DNA of 64,000 nt. Origin: Phycisphaeraceae bacterium D3-23 (lineage in GTDB: Bacteria > Planctomycetota > Phycisphaerae > Phycisphaerales > Phycisphaeraceae). Of this stretch, positions 3,665 to 63,882 are shown piece by piece (position 1 is the first letter of the stretch; the number at the start of each line of letters is the position of its first letter). Where the stretch lies: contig CP114179.1 of the NCBI GenBank assembly GCA_039555135.1, forward strand, positions 2,666,001 to 2,730,000, in the 5' to 3' direction. The translations under genes were made by a program, and so were the position numbers. The notes under the pieces were generated by a model, which made no database searches, had not been told where the DNA came from, and saw only the letters and a program-made list of their open reading frames with translations.

Positions 3665-3757
3665 GTGAGGAGTGAGGAGTGAGGAGTGAGGGAGTAATCA
3701 CGCCCAGCCGCTTGTGCTTCATCAGGCCTCGCGCCTCACGCCTCACCGCTCAAGCCC
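3665..3757. repeat. Intergenic inverted element with iterated GTGAGG word
   Basis: Four tandem copies of a 7-mer (GTGAGGA three times, then GTGAGGG) occupy 3665-3692. An inverted, degenerate set of the same word (CCTCGCG, CCTCACG, CCTCACC) follows at 3727-3748 and runs almost to the amidotransferase stop at 3763. The arms could pair into a long imperfect hairpin. This is the first of six elements here with the same architecture but unrelated words. Confidence 0.65.
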
Positions 3758-7829: not shown

Positions 7830-7840
7830 GGGGGAGGGGT

Positions 7841-7983
7841 TAGGCGCTAGGGCCTAGGTCGCGCCATCAAGTGTCATGCCGCGGCTAGATGTGCGGCTCG
7901 GTACGGATCCCCAGGGTAGTCTTTTTCAATGCAACGCAACGAGCAACAACCTAGGCGCTAGGCCCTAGCGCCTAGCGCCTAGA
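7841..7983. repeat. Intergenic inverted element with CTAGGCGC word
   Basis: A 17-bp arm, TAGGCGCTAGGGCCTAG, at 7841-7857 is exactly repeated in inverse orientation at 7958-7974. The right side is extended by further CTAGGCGC/GCGCCTAG units over 7951-7983. The right side ends two bases before the aminotransferase stop codon at 7986-7988. The 156-bp gap between the oxidoreductase and aminotransferase genes is mostly this element. Confidence 0.8.
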
Positions 7984-15224: not shown

Positions 15225-15548
15225 TCAATCTTCGGACAGCTCCGCGTCAAGATCGCGCTCGCCCCGAAGAAAACGGAGCACTTCGATCCCGTTCGTAGTG
15301 ATACGATAGAAGATCAACACGCTGCCAAACGGCTTGCCCACGTTCCATTTGCGAAGACCCTTGAGTTTCGTACGACGGGCTTCCCAGAGACGCCCCAGGC
15401 CTGGCTGCTCGGCCAAGTCATCCAACGTGGCCGTCGTTGTCGCCCGAAACTGCTGTGCGAGTTCCAAACCGCCCTCGGCCTCGTACCAAACATACAGCGA
15501 CACCAGCTCGGAACGAGCGATCGGACTGATGAGCACTTCCCGGCTCAA
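15225..15548 (-). CDS. parE: ParE/RelE-family toxin
   Basis: A 107-aa toxin with the ParE-like pattern: ISPIARSELVSLYVWYEAEGG at the N-terminus, GLGRLWEARRTKLKGLRKWNVGK and FYRITTNGIEVLRFLRGERD toward the C-terminus. ParE toxins target gyrase; RelE relatives cleave ribosome-bound mRNA. It overlaps the antitoxin gene by four bases and is transcribed against the flanking rml genes, so it is an insertion in the rhamnose locus. ParE is favoured over RelE by the ParD-type partner. Confidence 0.85.
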   Translation of the reverse strand: MSREVLISPIARSELVSLYVWYEAEGGLELAQQFRATTTATLDDLAEQPGLGRLWEARRTKLKGLRKWNVGKPFGSVLIFYRITTNGIEVLRFLRGERDLDAELSED

Positions 15549-15811
15549 TGACCTTCCTTCTGTCGCGCCGCGATCAGCTTCAACGCATCCCGCTCAATGC
15601 GATCCCACGCCTCTTCATCCAGCACCGTCGCCGGGCCGCTCTCCAGCCCCTCGATCAACAACTGCTCCAGCTTGTCCTGCGCCGCCCGCTTACGCTCGTC
15701 GCGGATCAGTTGACGCACGTATTCTGTCGGGGTCGCAAACCCCTTAAGCTTGACCTGTTCATCCACGAACTTGCGGAGCTCGTCGGGCATGTTGACATTG
15801 ATTCCAGCCAT
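15545..15811 (-). CDS. parD: ParD-like ribbon-helix-helix antitoxin
   Basis: An 88-aa antitoxin. The N-terminal ribbon-helix-helix (MAGINVNMPDELRKFVDEQV, then GFATPTEYVRQLIRDE) is typical of ParD/CopG DNA binding. The acidic/hydrophobic C-terminus would wrap the toxin. It is first in the two-gene operon with a four-base overlap. A palindromic operator and a TTGACA/TAGGAT promoter lie immediately upstream, consistent with the autoregulation usual for such modules. Confidence 0.85.
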   Translation of the reverse strand: MAGINVNMPDELRKFVDEQVKLKGFATPTEYVRQLIRDERKRAAQDKLEQLLIEGLESGPATVLDEEAWDRIERDALKLIAARQKEGH

Positions 15812-16598: not shown

Positions 16599-17122
16599 CG
16601 ACTCTCCACGCAGGAACGCAAGCCGTGTCACCACCCCGCAGCATCCAGACGTTCAAGGGCCCGCTCGACGACGCCTTCGAGGACGCCAAGCAGCACAACG
16701 CCCCGCGCTTCGTCCCCCAGAGCATCTTCGCCGACGACCGTGGCTGGTCCTATATGAACCAGTTCGTCGGCGTCCTGCGACCCGAAGGACAGGTCAACTA
16801 CTCGGTGATGTACCCGGGCGTCGTCAAGGCCTGGCACCGCCACCATAAGCAGACCGACTTCTGGATGGTGCTGCACGGCCACCTCAAGCTCGGCGTCCAC
16901 AACGAGAAAACCGGCGAGTCCTGGGTCAAGGTGATTGGCGAAAAAGCGCCCGGCATCGCCATCGTCCCGCCCACCCTCTGGCACGGCGGCGCGACCGTCG
17001 GCCCCGACAACGCCGGGCTGCTCTACTTCGTCACCCACCAGTACGACCCCCAAAACCCCGACGAAGACCGCCGCGACTGGGACAGCGTCGAAGGGTTCCC
17101 GTGGGATGTGCAGTTCAAGTAG
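16595..17122 (+). CDS. rmlC: dTDP-4-dehydrorhamnose 3,5-epimerase-like protein
   Basis: A 175-aa cupin. It has RmlC-family features such as DDRGW near the N-terminus, HRHHKQTDFWMVLHG with histidines suited to the active site, and PPTLWHGG in the second half. The sequence is divergent from classical RmlC, but its place directly upstream of rmlD and in an otherwise complete rml set supports the assignment. It starts inside the stop of the membrane-protein gene and ends 2 bp before rmlD. Confidence 0.8.
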   Translation: MTTLHAGTQAVSPPRSIQTFKGPLDDAFEDAKQHNAPRFVPQSIFADDRGWSYMNQFVGVLRPEGQVNYSVMYPGVVKAWHRHHKQTDFWMVLHGHLKLGVHNEKTGESWVKVIGEKAPGIAIVPPTLWHGGATVGPDNAGLLYFVTHQYDPQNPDEDRRDWDSVEGFPWDVQFK

Positions 17123-17124
17123 GT

Positions 17125-17964
17125 ATGCCCAGCCAGAAAAACATCCTGCTCATCGCCCCCAACGGCATGCTCGGCCGGGCGTGGCGCGAACTGCTTGACG
17201 ATAAAGGGGACGGACCCCGTTTCGCGAGCCGCCCCGACTTCGATATCACCGACCCCGTATCGATCCGCAAGCATGTCACCGGCGATATCAACATCGTTAT
17301 CAACTGTTGTGCCTATACCGATGTCGACGGTGCCGAGGAGCACGAAGGCCGAGCCACCGCCGTCAACGGCCACGGCGTCGGCGACCTCGCCAACGCCTGC
17401 CGCGACGCCGGCGCACTGCTCGTCCACTACTCCACCGACTACGTCTTCAGCGGCGACGCCACCGAGCCCTACCCCATCGACGCGCCGATCGAACCGATCA
17501 ACGCCTACGGCCGATCCAAAGCCGTGGGCGAACGGCTCATCCGCGAATCGGGTTGCGAACACCTCATCCTCCGCACGAGTTGGCTCTACGCGCCGTGGGG
17601 CAAAAACTTCGTCAATACGATCAAAGAGGCCGCAATAAAACGCGACGCGCTGAAAGTTGTCGATGACCAGCGCGGCCGGCCGACGAGTTGCCAGCACCTC
17701 GCGGCGAACTCTCTCATGCTGATTGAAGCCAACGCACGCGGAACATTCCACACCACCGACGGCGGCGAATGCACCTGGTACGACTTCGCAAAAGTAATCG
17801 CCGCCCACGCCAACCCCGCCTGCACAGTCAACCCCTGCACCAGCGCCGAGTACCCCCTCCCTGCCAAACGCCCGGGCTACAGTGTGTTCGACCTGAGCAA
17901 GACCGAGGCACTTGTGGGCGGAATGGCTGGGTGGGAAGCGAACCTCAAGGCCGTTTTGACATGA
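17125..17964 (+). CDS. rmlD: dTDP-4-dehydrorhamnose reductase
   Basis: Final step of dTDP-L-rhamnose synthesis, NAD(P)H-dependent. The 279-aa extended SDR shows a NAD-binding start ILLIAPNGMLGRAW, VHYSTDYVFSG and the catalytic YGRSK. The ATG at 17125 is preferred over an in-frame GTG at 17101 that overlaps rmlC. The stop codon (17962-17964) lies inside the left terminal repeat of the GxxExxY cassette, so the last residues (VLT) are encoded by the inserted repeat. Confidence 0.93.
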   Translation: MPSQKNILLIAPNGMLGRAWRELLDDKGDGPRFASRPDFDITDPVSIRKHVTGDINIVINCCAYTDVDGAEEHEGRATAVNGHGVGDLANACRDAGALLVHYSTDYVFSGDATEPYPIDAPIEPINAYGRSKAVGERLIRESGCEHLILRTSWLYAPWGKNFVNTIKEAAIKRDALKVVDDQRGRPTSCQHLAANSLMLIEANARGTFHTTDGGECTWYDFAKVIAAHANPACTVNPCTSAEYPLPAKRPGYSVFDLSKTEALVGGMAGWEANLKAVLT

Positions 17965-18430
17965 TGACAGGATTGGCAGGATGAACAGGATTAGTCATGG
18001 AAGATGAGGAACTGACTCGCCAGATCATTGGGTGTGCCTATCAGGTTCACAATACGCTGGGGGGTGGATTCATGGAGTCGGTCTATCAGCGGGCCATGGC
18101 GATCGAACTGGCGAAGCTGGGGTTGTCAGGTCTGCTTGAAAAGAAGATTCCCGTTCATTATGAAAGTCAGCTAGTGGGTGAGTTCAAGGCCGACATCGTG
18201 GTCGAAAATCGAGTGATCATCGAACTCAAGGCCGTCGAGACGCTGGCCAAAATCTACGAAGTCCAACTCGTCAACTACCTTGTTGCTACAGGCATCCCGA
18301 TTGGTTTACTCATCAACTTCAGCCCCGAACGCGTCGACGTCAAACGCAAGTACCGCGACCACAAACCCAGCCACTAAACTGCCTTCATCCGCATCCTGTC
18401 CATCCTGAAAATCCTGCCATCCTGTCAAAA
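17954..18430. mobile_element. GxxExxY cassette with 38-bp imperfect terminal inverted repeats
   Basis: The left arm 17954-17991 and right arm 18393-18430 are inverted copies matching at 33 of 38 positions without gaps. Each arm iterates the word ACAGGAT/GGCAGGAT and begins TTTTGACA at the outer end. Between them lies one gene, a GxxExxY protein. The element is wedged between rmlD and rmlB: the left arm supplies the rmlD stop and the right arm ends 12 bp before the rmlB ATG. No clear target duplication or transposase is visible. Confidence 0.75.
17997..18377 (+). CDS. GxxExxY protein, PD-(D/E)XK nuclease-like
   Basis: A 126-aa protein with the signature Gly24-x-x-Glu27-x-x-Tyr30 (GFMESVY). 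The core Asp66 ... Glu76-Leu-Lys78 (KADIVVENRVIIELKAVE) matches the PD-(D/E)XK nuclease fold to which the family is assigned. Base composition is nearer 50% GC, unlike the rml genes around it. It is the only gene between the 38-bp inverted repeats. Cellular function is unknown; a role in DNA cleavage linked to element spread is a hypothesis. Confidence 0.9.
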   Translation: MEDEELTRQIIGCAYQVHNTLGGGFMESVYQRAMAIELAKLGLSGLLEKKIPVHYESQLVGEFKADIVVENRVIIELKAVETLAKIYEVQLVNYLVATGIPIGLLINFSPERVDVKRKYRDHKPSH

Positions 18431-18442
18431 AAGAACCCACCC

Positions 18443-19468
18443 ATGAAAATCCTACTCACCGGCGGCAGCGGCTTTATCGGCTCGAACTTCGTCCGGCTCG
18501 TCTTGAGCGAACGGCCCGACTTTTCGATCACCAACCTCGACTCGCTCACCTACTCCGGCAACCCGGAGAACCTCGCGGATGTCGAGGACAACCCAAACTA
18601 CACCTTCGTCCACGGCAACATCTGCGACCTCGACCTGTGTACCCAGCTCATGCAGGACGCCGACGCCGTCGTGCATATGGCCGCCGAGTCGCACGTGGAC
18701 CGCTCGATCATCGACGCCCGGCCGTTCGTCGAGTCCAACGTGCTGGGCACGCAGACCCTGCTCGACGCCTGCCGACGCAGCGACCCAGACAACCAAAAGC
18801 CCTTCGTCCACGTCAGCACCGACGAGGTGTTCGGCGACCTGCCGATCGACAAGCCCGACGAATTGTTCAGTGAGACGACGCCCTACGCGCCGTCGAGCCC
18901 GTACTCCGCGAGCAAGGCCGGCAGCGACATGGTCGCCCGCGCTTACGCCCACACGTTCGGCATGAAGGTGATGATCACCAACTGCTCGAACAACCACGGC
19001 CCGTACCAGTTCCCCGAGAAAGTCATCCCGCTCTTCGTCACCAACCTCATCGAGGGCAAAAAAGTCCCGCTCTATGGGGATGGCAAGAACGTCCGTGACT
19101 GGCTGCATGTCGAAGACCACTGCGAGGCGGTGCTGACCGTCTTGGAGAAGGGCGTCGCCGGCGAGCAGTACTGCATCGGCGGGAACAACGAACGCAGCAA
19201 CCTCGAACTGACCCACGCGATCCTCGAACTGATGGGCAAGGACCACAGCCACATCGAGCCCGTCACCGACCGCCTGGGCCACGACCGCCGGTACGCCATC
19301 GACGCGACGAAGATCAAGACGCAGCTGGGCTGGGAGCCCACCCGCAGCGCCTGGCCCCAGGCGTTGGAGAACACCGTCAAGTGGTACGTCGATAATCCAA
19401 ACTGGTGGCAAAACGTCAAGAGCGGCGCCTACCGCGACTACTACGCGAAGCAGTACGGCACGCGCTAA
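18443..19468 (+). CDS. rmlB: dTDP-glucose 4,6-dehydratase
   Basis: Second enzyme of the rhamnose pathway; converts dTDP-glucose to the 4-keto-6-deoxy sugar using bound NAD+. The 341-aa length is normal. TGGSGFIGSNFVR binds NAD; STDEVFGDL and YSASKAGSD contain the catalytic threonine/acidic pair and Tyr-x-x-x-Lys, and NNHGPYQFPEK is typical. It lies directly after the GxxExxY cassette, with no clear Shine-Dalgarno visible in the 12 bp between the repeat and the ATG. Confidence 0.97.
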   Translation: MKILLTGGSGFIGSNFVRLVLSERPDFSITNLDSLTYSGNPENLADVEDNPNYTFVHGNICDLDLCTQLMQDADAVVHMAAESHVDRSIIDARPFVESNVLGTQTLLDACRRSDPDNQKPFVHVSTDEVFGDLPIDKPDELFSETTPYAPSSPYSASKAGSDMVARAYAHTFGMKVMITNCSNNHGPYQFPEKVIPLFVTNLIEGKKVPLYGDGKNVRDWLHVEDHCEAVLTVLEKGVAGEQYCIGGNNERSNLELTHAILELMGKDHSHIEPVTDRLGHDRRYAIDATKIKTQLGWEPTRSAWPQALENTVKWYVDNPNWWQNVKSGAYRDYYAKQYGTR

Positions 19469-20434: not shown

Positions 20435-20460
20435 GGACGGGCTGCTTAAGCAGCCAGTCC
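20435..20460. repeat. 26-bp palindrome, copy 1 of 3
   Basis: The left half GGACGGGCTGCTT is followed by the right half AAGCAGCCAGTCC, palindromic except one pair. It belongs to the same family as the copies at 53596 and 63822. It sits between the divergent DUF2071 and trxA genes. Confidence 0.8.
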
Positions 20461-20500
20461 AAGCCCCAGGAATATTCACTCCTCCTGATCGGTTCTCCGT

Positions 20501-26304: not shown

Positions 26305-26411
26305 CGAAGTGGCCGAGTGGTTCAGTGGCCAAGTGGTCTAGCGGTTTAGGGTCAAGGTGCGCGAAACTCTTCACTTGGCCACTGGGTCACTCGATCGCTG
26401 GGCCACTTCCC
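26305..26411. repeat. Intergenic inverted element with AGTGGCC word
   Basis: The left arm (26305-26333) has GAAGTGGCC, GAGTGG and CAGTGGCCAAGTGG. The right arm (about 26371-26411) carries the inverse, CACTTGGCCACTG ... GGGCCACTTC, with about a dozen extra bases. The right arm ends three bases before the DUF1800 stop. Confidence 0.65.
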
Positions 26412-33352: not shown

Positions 33353-33429
33353 GTTTAGCCGCCCGCCCAACGGGCGGCGCGTGGCTGACCGGATCACCGA
33401 CGCGCCGCCCGTTGGGCGGTCGGCTAAAC
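33353..33429. repeat. GTTTAGCC inverted-repeat element, copy 1
   Basis: Two 30-bp arms (33353-33382 and 33400-33429) match in inverse orientation with one mismatch. Each starts GTTTAGCCG and contains the nested palindrome CGCCCAACGGGCG; the spacer is 17 bp. It lies upstream of the lipoprotein gene. Confidence 0.85.
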
Positions 33430-38800: not shown

Positions 38801-38865
38801 TGAACCGAGCATTGTAGCAGGGTCAACGTTCGCGCATTCAAAACGCGGACGCCCGGTCGGCTTGG

Positions 38866-41259
<2,394 letters not shown>

Positions 41260-44690: not shown

Positions 44691-45602
44691 ATGCCGACCG
44701 ACTTTATCCAACACGGCGGGCTGACGATCCACCCCGACTACGCCGACGCGCTCCAGGCCGCCGGGCTCGACTCGCTCGACGCCCTATTGCAGACGCCTGG
44801 TGCTGACAACCTGCACAAGCCCGGGCTCGCCGACTGGCGCCAGCGCCTGCGATTGAAGCTGCACGATTCGCACGAAAACACGGGCGTCGGCGTAACGCAG
44901 CCGCTTGTGTGCTACCTCAAACGCTACCGCCGACCGCCAATCAAGGCGCAGTGGGAGAACCGCCGTGCGGGGCACGCGGACTGCGCGGCGGTCGAGTGGC
45001 GCTGGCTCACCGAACTCGACCGCCTTGGCGTCCCCGGGCCCATCCCTGTCGCGTATGGCGCGCGGCGGCGCGGGCTGCTCGAAGACGCGAGCGTCGTCGT
45101 CACCGCCGCCGTGCCCGGTGAATCGCTCGAACGCTGGGTGCCAAACCAGCTCGCGCCCGGCGACGCGCTGGACGACCGCGATGCGCGGCGGCGGCTCATC
45201 CATGCCACCGCTACACTCGCCGCCCAACTGCACGGCCACGGGCTCATCCACCGCGACCTCTACCTCGCCCACCTCTTCCTCGACCCCGCCACGCTGGACG
45301 ATGGCCCACCGACGCTCACGCTCATCGACCTGCAGCGCATGATCCGCCCGCGCGTTCGCTGGACCCGCTGGGTTGTCAAGGACCTCGCCGCGCTGAGCTA
45401 CTCGACCCCCGCCCCAGCCGCGAGCACAGCCGACCGCGTGCGGTGGTTCAAGCAGTACCGCAACACCGCCAAGCTCTCGCCCGCCGACCGTTCGCTGATC
45501 CGCGCGGTCGCCGCGAAGACAAAGCGCATCGCCCGGCACGACGCCAAACGCAACGCCCGCCACGCCACGCAAGAGGATGCAAACCGCGCGCCAACCGTTT
45601 AG
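44691..45602 (+). CDS. LPS core heptose kinase-like protein (WaaP/InaA)
   Basis: A 303-aa kinase. The loop LIHRDLYLAHLFL is very close to the WaaP HRDCYICHFLL form, and LTLIDLQRM supplies the metal aspartate. WaaP kinases phosphorylate the first heptose of LPS core. The stop codon (45600-45602) is supplied by the GTTTAGCC repeat that begins at 45597, so the last residues (PTV) are at the repeat boundary. Lys/Arg-rich C-terminus. Confidence 0.82.
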   Translation: MPTDFIQHGGLTIHPDYADALQAAGLDSLDALLQTPGADNLHKPGLADWRQRLRLKLHDSHENTGVGVTQPLVCYLKRYRRPPIKAQWENRRAGHADCAAVEWRWLTELDRLGVPGPIPVAYGARRRGLLEDASVVVTAAVPGESLERWVPNQLAPGDALDDRDARRRLIHATATLAAQLHGHGLIHRDLYLAHLFLDPATLDDGPPTLTLIDLQRMIRPRVRWTRWVVKDLAALSYSTPAPAASTADRVRWFKQYRNTAKLSPADRSLIRAVAAKTKRIARHDAKRNARHATQEDANRAPTV

Positions 45603-45671
45603 CCGCCGCCCAATGGGCGACGCGTTGGCGTGACCCGCCACGTCGTGCCGCTCGTTGGGCGACGGCTAAAC
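45597..45671. repeat. GTTTAGCC inverted-repeat element, copy 2
   Basis: Starts GTTTAGCCGCCGCCCAATGG and ends with the inverse (CGTTGGGCGACGGCTAAAC). Arms are imperfect. It overlaps the WaaP-like stop codon and ends 35 bp before the amidotransferase ATG. Confidence 0.75.
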
Positions 45672-45706
45672 GTCGCTTCGCTTCCTTCTCACGTATTGAT
45701 CCCACC

Positions 45707-53595: not shown

Positions 53596-53621
53596 GGACT
53601 GGTTGCATAAGCAACCAGTCC
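53596..53621. repeat. 26-bp palindrome, copy 2 of 3
   Basis: GGACTGGTTGC, ATAA, GCAACCAGTCC between the convergent DUF4190/DUF1559-like gene and a cyclophilin gene; same family as 20435 and 63822. Confidence 0.85.
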
Positions 53622-53653
53622 GAGCGGGTGTGGTCTCAAAACTGAACTGGCGC

Positions 53654-62197: not shown

Positions 62198-62243
62198 ACG
62201 CGGGCTCCTTTGCCCTTAGTTTATCGGGGGAAAAGAGGAGTGG

Positions 62244-62358
62244 CCACAGATGGACACGGATAAACACAGATCAATCAAAGAAGGGAATTACCTCTCCTTG
62301 CAATTCGACTTCTCAGCTTCCAATCCCACAATCTGTGTTGATCTGTGTCCATCTGTGG
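62244..62358. repeat. Intergenic inverted element with CACAGATGGA word
   Basis: Arms 62244-62271 and 62331-62358 are 28-bp inverted copies with two mismatches, each iterating CACAGAT/GGACACAGAT. The right arm ends exactly before the argH stop codon. A 59-bp AT-rich spacer separates the arms. Confidence 0.85.
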
Positions 62359-63789
62359 CTACCCTTTCAACCGCTCCTTCCACGCCGCGAGCTGTTGCTC
62401 GAACCCGCTCACCCCCGCGTTGCCGGCCGACTGGTAACGCTTCACCACGTTCTCCGGGCCCAGCCAGTCAAACACGTCATCGCCGACCGCGTCGGCGCTG
62501 TTGTACTCGGCGCACACCGCGTTCATCTCGTCGATCTTGAGCTGTTCGAGCTTGTACCGGCCTGTCTCGTTGCACAGCCCGACCAAGCGCCCCACGACCT
62601 GGTGCGACGTGCGGAACGGCACGCCCTTGGTCACCAAGTACTCGGCCAGCGAGGTCGCGTCGAGGTAGCCGTGGTCGAGGCCCTGCTTGATGCGGTCCTC
62701 GTTGAAGGTGACGGTCTTGACGATGCCCGCCGCCATATCGAGGCAGTCGCACACCGCGTCGTAGGCGGCGAAGAGGTGGCGCTTGTCTTCCTGCAGGTCG
62801 CGGTTGTAGCCGACGGTGAGTCCTTTGCACATGGTGAGCAGGGCCATGAGCGAGCCGTAGACCTGGCCGGTCTTCCCGCGGATGAGTTCGAGCATGTCCG
62901 GGTTCTGCTTCTGGGGCATCATCGACGACCCGGTCGTGTAGGTGTCGGCGATCGTGATGAACCCAAACTCCGTCGTCGCGTAGATGATCCACTGCTCCGC
63001 CCAGCGTGAGAGCCACATGGAGGTCATGGTGAGGGCGTAGGTGAAGTCGAGGGCCGCGTCGCGCGAGGCGGTGGCGTCGATCGAATTCTCGGAGGGAGGC
63101 CCGGCAGTCGTAAACTGGTCGGCGGTGAATTCACGATCAAGCGGGAGACTGCTGCCAGCGATCGCACCACTCCCGAGTGGGCAAGTGCTGTTTCCGCCAT
63201 GTACAACTAATGCATGAAGCCGTGATGCCGCACGTTCTAGTGAAGACAGCCAAGCCATGATCTCCCCACCGAGTACGATCGGTTGTGCCCGTTGCAAGTG
63301 CGTATAGGAGGGCATCACAATATGCCCAAATCTTTCTGCGATGGTTACGAAAGACTCTGATAAGGCGTCGATCCGATCGAGTATCTCGTCTTCGGCGTCG
63401 TCAACCCACAGCATCAAATCCAGCGCCACCTGATCGTTCCGACTGCGCCCGGTATGCAGCTTCCTTCCCGCGTCCCCCGCCTTCTCGATGAGTGCGGCTT
63501 CGATGCACATGTGGACGTCTTCGAGTTCGACCTTCCAGCCGGGCCAGGCGTCGCCCTGCTCGGCGATCTCTTTCTCAATCTCGTCAAGCCCGGCGTTGAT
63601 CTGCGCAAGGTCGTCATCCGTGATGAGCCCGACCTTGCAGAGCATCGCGGCGTGGGCCTTGGACCCGCGGATGTCGTGGGTGTAGAGGCGTTTGTCGTAG
63701 TCCAGCGACGCGACGAACCGCGCGGCCAACGGGTCTTGCTCGGACCCCGACCCCTTCGCGTGTTCCCAGGGCTTGTGTGCAGTGCTCAT
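62359..63789 (-). CDS. argH: Argininosuccinate lyase
   Basis: Last step of arginine synthesis, argininosuccinate to arginine + fumarate. At 476 aa it is normal. HTGRSRNDQVALD and the family signature SSMMPQKQNPD are intact. The start MSTAHKPWEH is chosen at 63789; the frame could extend upstream only by translating the 26-bp palindrome. A segment at about 63095-63440 has lower GC and different wording from its flanks (for example about 45% in 63301-63360 against about 63% in 63541-63600), a possible recombination tract. Confidence 0.95.
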   Translation of the reverse strand: MSTAHKPWEHAKGSGSEQDPLAARFVASLDYDKRLYTHDIRGSKAHAAMLCKVGLITDDDLAQINAGLDEIEKEIAEQGDAWPGWKVELEDVHMCIEAALIEKAGDAGRKLHTGRSRNDQVALDLMLWVDDAEDEILDRIDALSESFVTIAERFGHIVMPSYTHLQRAQPIVLGGEIMAWLSSLERAASRLHALVVHGGNSTCPLGSGAIAGSSLPLDREFTADQFTTAGPPSENSIDATASRDAALDFTYALTMTSMWLSRWAEQWIIYATTEFGFITIADTYTTGSSMMPQKQNPDMLELIRGKTGQVYGSLMALLTMCKGLTVGYNRDLQEDKRHLFAAYDAVCDCLDMAAGIVKTVTFNEDRIKQGLDHGYLDATSLAEYLVTKGVPFRTSHQVVGRLVGLCNETGRYKLEQLKIDEMNAVCAEYNSADAVGDDVFDWLGPENVVKRYQSAGNAGVSGFEQQLAAWKERLKG

Positions 63790-63821: not shown

Positions 63822-63847
63822 GGACTGGTTGCTTAAGCAACCAGTCC
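63822..63847. repeat. 26-bp palindrome, copy 3 of 3
   Basis: Perfect palindrome, GGACTGGTTGCTT then AAGCAACCAGTCC, between argH and the partial SSB-like gene. Confidence 0.9.
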
Positions 63848-63882
63848 GACACAACGTCAATCTTCAGATACCCGAACTAAAA

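Follow-up and report, generated by a model that had tools for sequence, protein, structure and literature searches.

Why should a small nuclease gene, framed by inverted repeats, lie in the middle of what is taken to be a rhamnose operon? The question is raised by a cassette of 477 bp in the genome of Phycisphaeraceae bacterium D3-23 (assembly GCA_039555135.1), where a gene for a GxxExxY protein stands between two inverted arms at the junction of an rmlD-like and an rmlB-like open reading frame (ORF). The DNA analysed, hereafter the window, is a stretch of 64,000 nucleotides (contig CP114179.1, positions 2,666,001 to 2,730,000, forward strand). A sequence-only reading of the window had proposed that gene and arms move together, perhaps through nuclease-driven gap repair as in homing elements, and that a wider family of arms is represented here in its cargo-bearing form. 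The observation is upheld and extends beyond one cassette. The unit is very probably mobile, which is the well-supported part; it is probably a small palindromic mobile element in the form that bears a nuclease, and this nuclease probably acts on the element's own arms. It would belong to a large and apparently undescribed class of small mobile palindromes, which occupy intergenic positions in many bacterial phyla and are sometimes nested; a literature search among open-licence papers returned no description of these elements.

The cassette and its protein

The two arms pair without gaps over 38 nt, with 33 matches; scored as matches minus mismatches, the cassette reaches 28 (33 - 5). A score of at least 28 was obtained in none of 5000 shuffles of both flanks in 2-base blocks (maximum 18) and at none of 4857 places drawn at random in the window with the geometry kept (maximum 23). 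Every detail of the initial description holds, including the single enclosed gene, the rmlD stop codon within the left arm and the 12 bp that separate the end of the right arm (18430) from the rmlB-like ATG (18443). The names of neighbouring genes used here (rml, lol, atp, fab and kbl-tdh) are presumed from resemblance. An intrinsic terminator was considered and rejected, since at both outer ends the hairpin is followed by a run of A and not of T (CTGTCAAAAAA on the + strand, CATGTCAAAAC on the - strand).

The enclosed gene is indeed a member of the GxxExxY family. Its only Pfam match is PF13366 (PDDEXK_3; E 7.7e-39, 133.1 bits against a cut-off of 22), and its protein also matches the NCBIfam profile TIGR04256 for GxxExxY (E 1.4e-40, 138.2 bits against a cut-off of 35). 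In an alignment that covers 58 of 84 proteins, E27, D66, E76, K78, G22, Y30 and N107 are invariant, and D66, E76 and K78 form the D-x9-ExK active-site layout of the PD-(D/E)XK superfamily. The best solved fold for the AF2 model of the window protein (pLDDT 93.7) is 4ic1 (SSO0001, presumably a Cas4; Foldseek E 1.4e-4, Z 9.7), followed by 3ijm (Z 8.7) and, at values that may reflect only a common arrangement, by the archaeal Hjc 1gef (Z 7.1) and others near Z 7. As modelled, the protein is a conserved Cas4/Hjc-like PD-(D/E)XK fold; its likeness to Cas4, lambda-exonuclease and Hjc nucleases, in fold and active-site layout, is one of fold comparison only. A sequence search of solved structures gave no match at E up to 10, and PADLOC profiles gave none to the window protein, the Cas4b profile of that set matching the protein of locus L009 at E 8e-4. 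The best PHROGs match, of a RusA-like resolvase to the L012 protein (E 0.019), was not used.

Purifying selection acts on GxxExxY in one orthologous pair, at lolC-lolD (dN 0.27, dS 1.19, dN/dS about 0.2); in a second pair dN was 0.22 and dS was not computable. No match was present among 50,697 phage records, and the 8 matches among 72,556 plasmid records are none of them more than 60% identical, so that no recent strain-level pair is seen there. Identical GxxExxY stretches were noted in L128 and L129, on contigs labelled Verrucomicrobiota and Thermodesulfobacteriota and with no clear arms within 300 bases; the identity may reflect transfer or mis-binning.

Arms and genes as one unit

The association of gene and arms is not peculiar to the window. 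The genome that holds it (G000; 4.62 Mb, single contig) has four GxxExxY genes, all between inverted arms, which iterate the word CAGGAT in the window, CACGAAG in another locus and CGCCAAG in two. It also has seven PF05635 genes (S23, four-helix-bundle), six of them between inverted arms of other words and one (L049) without. For a wider sample, the best 80 of 508 confirmed GxxExxY places were taken from named genomes, the 300 bases upstream were compared with the reverse complement of the 300 downstream, and a score of at least 18 was counted as arms. The sequence-only reading had expected arms around other GxxExxY genes, and they flank 53 of the 77 loci with enough flank; the same score was reached by 19 of 770 mismatched pairs and by 5 of 66 distal controls. 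S23 loci are armed in 31 of 36 cases (13 of 360 mismatched pairs, 0 of 36 distal stretches); the S23 genes of L043-L048 in G000 and of L130-L158 lie at ordinary gene junctions, mostly inside inverted heptamer arms. The GxxExxY arms (58) consist of tandem words with a self-match peak at lag 9 (0.411, about 0.30 when shuffled), and the S23 arms (27) peak at lags 7 and 14 (0.509 and 0.479), which indicates two grammars. Arms and gene form one unit, and the same word-protein units are found in several phyla.

The arm word, moreover, follows the protein. Similarity of arm 6-mers tracks protein identity (Mantel rho 0.198, permutation maximum 0.135, 0 of 1000; 66 of 83 loci armed), and does so again in a separate set of loci from relatives (rho 0.44, 1 of 2000 permutations as high; 25 of 28 tested with arms). 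On the protein tree, which is based on few columns and has 36 of 80 inner branches unresolved, the 51 loci with a word class (15 named phyla account for 46) require 23 word changes, against a shuffled mean of 36.4 and a minimum of 31 (0 of 1000). Shuffling within phylum only, with the four G000 loci entered as Planctomycetota by assumption, gave a minimum of 26 changes against 22 (50 loci). The word classes, to which 51 of 84 rows are assigned, were set by hand once the arms had been seen; the k-mer tests are class-free. Eight of the 11 best matches to the window protein (L050-L060) fall into the CAGGAT class; their phyla are Planctomycetota, Verrucomicrobiota, Chloroflexota and Bacteroidota. 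Planctomycetota, Chloroflexota and Cyanobacteriota are among the members of a clade of 10 in which six loci have GCCAAG, and a clade of 8 with four CAGAG loci has Thermodesulfobacteriota, Fidelibacterota, Cloacimonadota and Myxococcota. Across phyla, arm word is predicted by protein clade.

Relatives show the same sites in different states. At rmlD-rmlB, where 30 rmlB loci were classed by eye (as were the other junctions), a two-armed element is present in 5 of the 29 other genomes. The congener G002 has the same cassette, in which the gene appears to be frame-shifted close to its 5' end; the congeners G001 and G003 have a gene-less palindrome with another word; G030 has a ACGCAGAT palindrome and G010 a nested one. 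No element is present in G029 and G013, and one-sided iterated words in a few other genomes were left uncounted. Gene-free junctions in close relatives, which the sequence-only reading had called for, are thus provided by G001 and G003, and the gene is not a constant feature of the site. G000 and G003 carry a GxxExxY cassette at lolC-lolD, a junction that is clean in G001 and G002. At the L011 site, G000 and G004 are occupied and G002 is clean; G001 has an element with no gene there, and G003 a single half-arm. At atpH-atpA there is an S23 gene in G000, a gene-less CACAGAT element in G001 and a one-sided remnant in G002, G003 and G004 being clean; G002 is also clean at the fabF site, and both G001 and G002 are clean at the L048 site.

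Other cargos occupy comparable positions. The L047 site has an S23 gene in G000 and, in G001, a gene for 117 aa with CACAGAG arms and no Pfam family over cut-off (L203 1717-2070); with L202 and L220, similar sequence was seen by eye at the junction in G002 and G003. Four further palindromes in relatives (L228-L231) include three that hold other ORFs (147, 136 and 99 aa) and one with no ORF of at least 50 aa; in L228 an inner GCAGAT palindrome surrounds the ORF. With S23 and other small ORFs also found between arms, GxxExxY is one cargo among several. That gene and arms travel together is upheld by the armed loci (53 of 77), by the coupling of clade and word and by the gene-less rmlD-rmlB junctions of G001 and G003. 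Neither of the outcomes that would have refuted the sequence-only reading was encountered. The notion of a wider arm family stands in part: the cassette is a cargo-bearing form, and gene-less palindromes of such words exist in G000 and in relatives, but there are many clade-tied word families and not one.

Nested palindromes and element ends

Nesting was followed in the genome G010, from which 20 palindromes were fetched and 19 examined. In most of the 19, the loop contains a second palindrome of another word, and L263 (G010:C54:27017-27432) has three complete levels, with CAGGAT outside CAGAG outside GCAGAT. L298 (G010:C54:34020-34560) and L297 likewise have about three levels, with a different word at each. 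A search of G010 for GCAGAT gave 78 matches, of which 38 sites were used together with 15 from the first set; the places C55:191, C55:2965-4004 and C68:70746 were omitted, and word runs were edited by eye (joining two L271 clusters, adding an outer left run to L248 and discarding stray single words in several rows). The resulting 53 sites comprise 31 complete nestings, 11 single palindromes, 8 partial ones and 3 sites without an element, and in none of the 53 is an arm split by another element. Since 15 of these sites had been picked for intact outer arms, which biases split arms out, the 38 sites picked by the GCAGAT word give the fairer figure: 19 nested, 0 split. Nesting occurs in both orders, GCAGAT being outside in three. 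Some two thirds or more of the length of a plain element is arm (L256, L265), yet no arm was split, and insertion therefore seems to be directed to the loop. Whole composite loops are repeated within one genome (L259, L260 and L264); these are copies, so that the nested sites are not all independent.

The ends of the elements carry no target duplication above chance: in the 19 G010 elements the mean end repeat is 2.47, against 2.29 for mismatched ends, and a direct repeat of at least 5 bp was seen in one (7 bp, L253). At lolC-lolD both genes are intact although they overlap in the empty congeners, which fits duplication at a site that is too diverged to call. In a homing element insertion would split the nuclease's site; empty alleles were seen, but they lie at junctions that are unrelated and have diverged too far for such a site to be defined. 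The suggestion of gap-repair homing finds no direct support, given these unrelated junctions, the lack of a target duplication beyond chance (1 of 19 elements) and the loop of another palindrome as a recurrent site in G010.

These results also bear on whether the elements move at all. Short tandem words might give rise to palindromes in situ, through replication slippage and template switching, with the gene being an ordinary one; arms of tandem words, end repeats at chance level and words that differ between species at the same junction would all agree with such an origin. It is nevertheless scarcely credible in view of the same word-protein units in several phyla, the composite loops repeated in one genome and the several orthologous junctions that are clean in congeners.

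Movement at the level of RNA, in which transcribed arms would form a hairpin cut by RNase III and the element would spread by reverse transcription or as processed RNA, is very improbable. It draws on the S23 cassettes outside rRNA, which share the anatomy of 23S rRNA intervening sequences, tandem heptamers included (PMC4990558). Mismatches between arms, however, show no G.U bias: at GxxExxY loci 108 transitions are of wobble type and 102 are not (p 0.73; 80 of 113 loci), and at S23 loci 45 are compatible with G.U and 36 are not (p 0.37; 27 of 36 loci), which gives no sign of selection on a transcribed hairpin. An Rfam search, moreover, found no rRNA near 40 GxxExxY loci (40 of the 80) and one tRNA. 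Cutting by RNase III could be a side effect.

Motor or passenger

If the elements move as DNA, the nuclease itself is the best candidate for the motor, and on balance it does seem to act on its own arms. The proposed element would consist of two inverted arms of a repeated 8-9 bp word, here CAGGAT, around a loop that holds the nuclease gene. The nuclease would recognise its own arm word and cut the extruded hairpin or cruciform, a fresh copy would be made elsewhere by host replication or repair, with a preference for loops of palindromes already present or for short gaps between genes, and gene-less copies would be mobilised in trans. Part of the case comes from copy numbers. GxxExxY is present in 38 of 61 relatives, and a general arm pattern (AACCRCVRAG plus two more words) in 31 of these 38 against 5 of the 23 without the gene (p 7.7e-6). 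Arm count rises with GxxExxY count (rho 0.69, and again 0.69 with one genome per genus, 50 genomes), the match counts including pieces of one gene in, for example, G031 and G053. After removal of two arms per match the pattern remains in 22 of the 38 and in 5 of the 23 (p 0.008), with a rho of 0.49, and GCCAAG triplets occur in 18 of 38 genomes with GxxExxY against 1 of 23 without (p 0.0004). The reversed control pattern GAACCG-GAACCG-GAACCG is matched 15 times in G020 and may represent a further word family.

The serious rival, although rather unlikely, is that the palindromes are moved in trans by another agent, either an HUH/Y1 transposase such as RAYT or host replication or recombination at cruciforms, so that GxxExxY, S23 and the small genes would be passengers or loop parasites. 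Several observations weigh against the nuclease as motor, and the first of them are those that the passenger role would explain. Unrelated small ORFs lie between arms of the same kind. S23 copy number also predicts arm count (rho 0.64), and a correlation specific to GxxExxY is therefore not upheld: partial rho is 0.59 for GxxExxY and 0.51 for S23 with the raw arm count, and 0.30 and 0.53, respectively, once the cassettes' own arms are corrected for. G019 has 42 GCCAAG matches, yet its only GxxExxY gene has CACGGAG arms, so a strict match of word between resident GxxExxY gene and gene-less elements does not hold in that genome. The arm pattern occurs in 5 of 23 genomes without GxxExxY, G005 and G025 among them being 66 and 70% complete. 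To these may be added that 24 of the 77 GxxExxY loci score below 18, that CAGGAT triplets do not differ significantly between genomes with and without the gene (8 of 38 and 1 of 23, p 0.13), that the nested sites come from one genome, G010, and are partly copies of one composite, and that the coupling of clade and word would also follow from physical linkage alone. On the other side, that coupling goes beyond phylum, all 58 aligned proteins keep the active-site residues unchanged, and an orthologous pair is under purifying selection. The nuclease as motor remains the best reading. A fuller version, possible but put forward tentatively, is that a lone nuclease of about 126 residues drives its own transposition: it would recognise its arms by their iterated words, cut at the loop of a hairpin or cruciform and bring about copying into other palindromes' loops with no target duplication, nested palindromes being the outcome. 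On this view words and protein clades would co-diversify, as locks do with keys, across many phyla, and the 23S rRNA intervening sequences would be the S23/heptamer branch.

Several known systems share part of this anatomy. Miniature inverted-repeat transposable elements (MITEs) are short, have terminal inverted repeats, lack a transposase and reach high copy numbers. The present elements resemble MITEs in all these respects and differ in having arms of tandem words, no target-site duplication beyond chance (19 elements) and gene-bearing forms that carry a nuclease. They are also inverted doublets that form hairpins, lie between genes and occur in many copies per genome, as REPIN-type elements do. 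According to PMC3116915, REPIN/RAYT systems are intergenic palindromic doublets whose flavours each lie beside their own enzyme gene, co-evolution of enzyme and palindrome is proposed, and the copies are thought to move in trans; short intergenic hairpin palindromes in many copies, with several word types tied to an enzyme gene, are common to both. The elements described here differ in that the enzyme is a small PD-(D/E)XK nuclease and not HUH/Y1, the gene lies inside the palindrome, the arms are iterated 8-9 bp words and the palindromes nest in each other's loops. Since its enzyme differs from RAYT, the cassette is not a REPIN; by analogy, the system is best read as one that would work like REPIN/RAYT with an unrelated enzyme. 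Neither of the repetitive extragenic palindromic (REP) tags named in the title of PMC3733652, GTAG and CGTC, is present in the two arms of the window cassette. Insertion into palindromes has a parallel in IS1397, IS621 and ISRm22, which target REP palindromes, ISRm22 inserting just at the axis of palindromy according to PMC1525189. Those are full insertion sequences with a transposase, whereas here the nuclease is the sole ORF, and ISRm22 copies are described there with direct repeats, whereas the end repeats of the 19 elements do not exceed chance.

A relation is also suggested for the 23S rRNA intervening sequences. In Coxiella, tandem heptamers GACAGAT lie just upstream of the S23p ORF, and the functionality and origin of such sequences are described as unclear, the idea of a transposition remnant being mentioned (PMC4990558). 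With terminal inverted repeats, one hairpin and one small ORF in the loop, they have the layout of the present elements, and the S23 cassettes of G000 reproduce their anatomy outside rRNA, tandem heptamers included. The window unit differs in lying at a sugar-operon junction and not in a 23S rRNA gene, in encoding GxxExxY and not S23p (PF05635), in a period of about 9 and not 7, and in having no RNA-level signal. By this analogy, we would read the 23S rRNA intervening sequences as members of the S23 branch of the class, and S23 cassettes at ordinary junctions could be their missing source.

If the proposal is true, short intergenic palindromes that are now unexplained sequence would form one mobile class whose enzyme family can be identified, the frequent but functionally empty name 'GxxExxY protein' would gain a function open to testing, and clades tied to short DNA words would offer a natural set of small sequence-reading nucleases. 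The class may be abundant. About six iterated-word palindromes, five of them gene-less, were recognised by eye among 87 inverted-repeat hits in the window (Table 1), which suggests perhaps hundreds per genome.

Table 1. Positions of the cassette, its neighbouring genes and similar elements in the window.
Feature	Position	Strand	Description
Left arm	17954..17991	+	Iterated CAGGAT word, period about 9; outer end TTTTGACA; holds rmlD stop codon
GxxExxY gene	17997..18377	+	126 aa; PD-(D/E)XK nuclease fold (predicted); sole gene between arms
Right arm	18393..18430	-	Inverted copy of left arm, 33/38; outer end TGTCAAAA
rmlD-like ORF, 5' neighbour	17101..17964	+	Stop inside left arm
rmlB-like ORF, 3' neighbour	18443..19468	+	Anchor for locating the junction in 60 relatives
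Gene-less element, same class	62236..62365	.	CACAGAT words
Gene-less palindrome	38858..38961	.	GACGGGAT words
Gene-less element	26306..26409	.	GTGGCCAAG words, S23-type grammar; S23 cassette L043 has similar words
Gene-less element(s)	7835..7982	.	CTAGGCG words, period 7
Gene-less element	3666..3752	.	TGAGGAG words, period 7

Palindromes of other kinds are also present in the window. A family without iterated words, GTTTAGCCG..CGGCTAAAC, is found at 33353-33429 and 45596-45672, and a palindrome with the core GGACTGGTTGCTTAAGCAACCAGTCC occurs in three copies, 82 to 100% alike, at 20435-20462, 53596-53623 and 63822-63849. Two overlapping ORFs of 107 and 88 aa on the - strand (15225-15548 and 15545-15811) resemble a ParE/ParD toxin-antitoxin pair. 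Elsewhere, the right arm of an S23 cassette (L044 1819-1900) is apparently readable as the start of a fabF-like frame, and at lolC-lolD (L012 1408-1860) GxxExxY shares its frame with the left arm; neighbouring genes may gain codons from arms.
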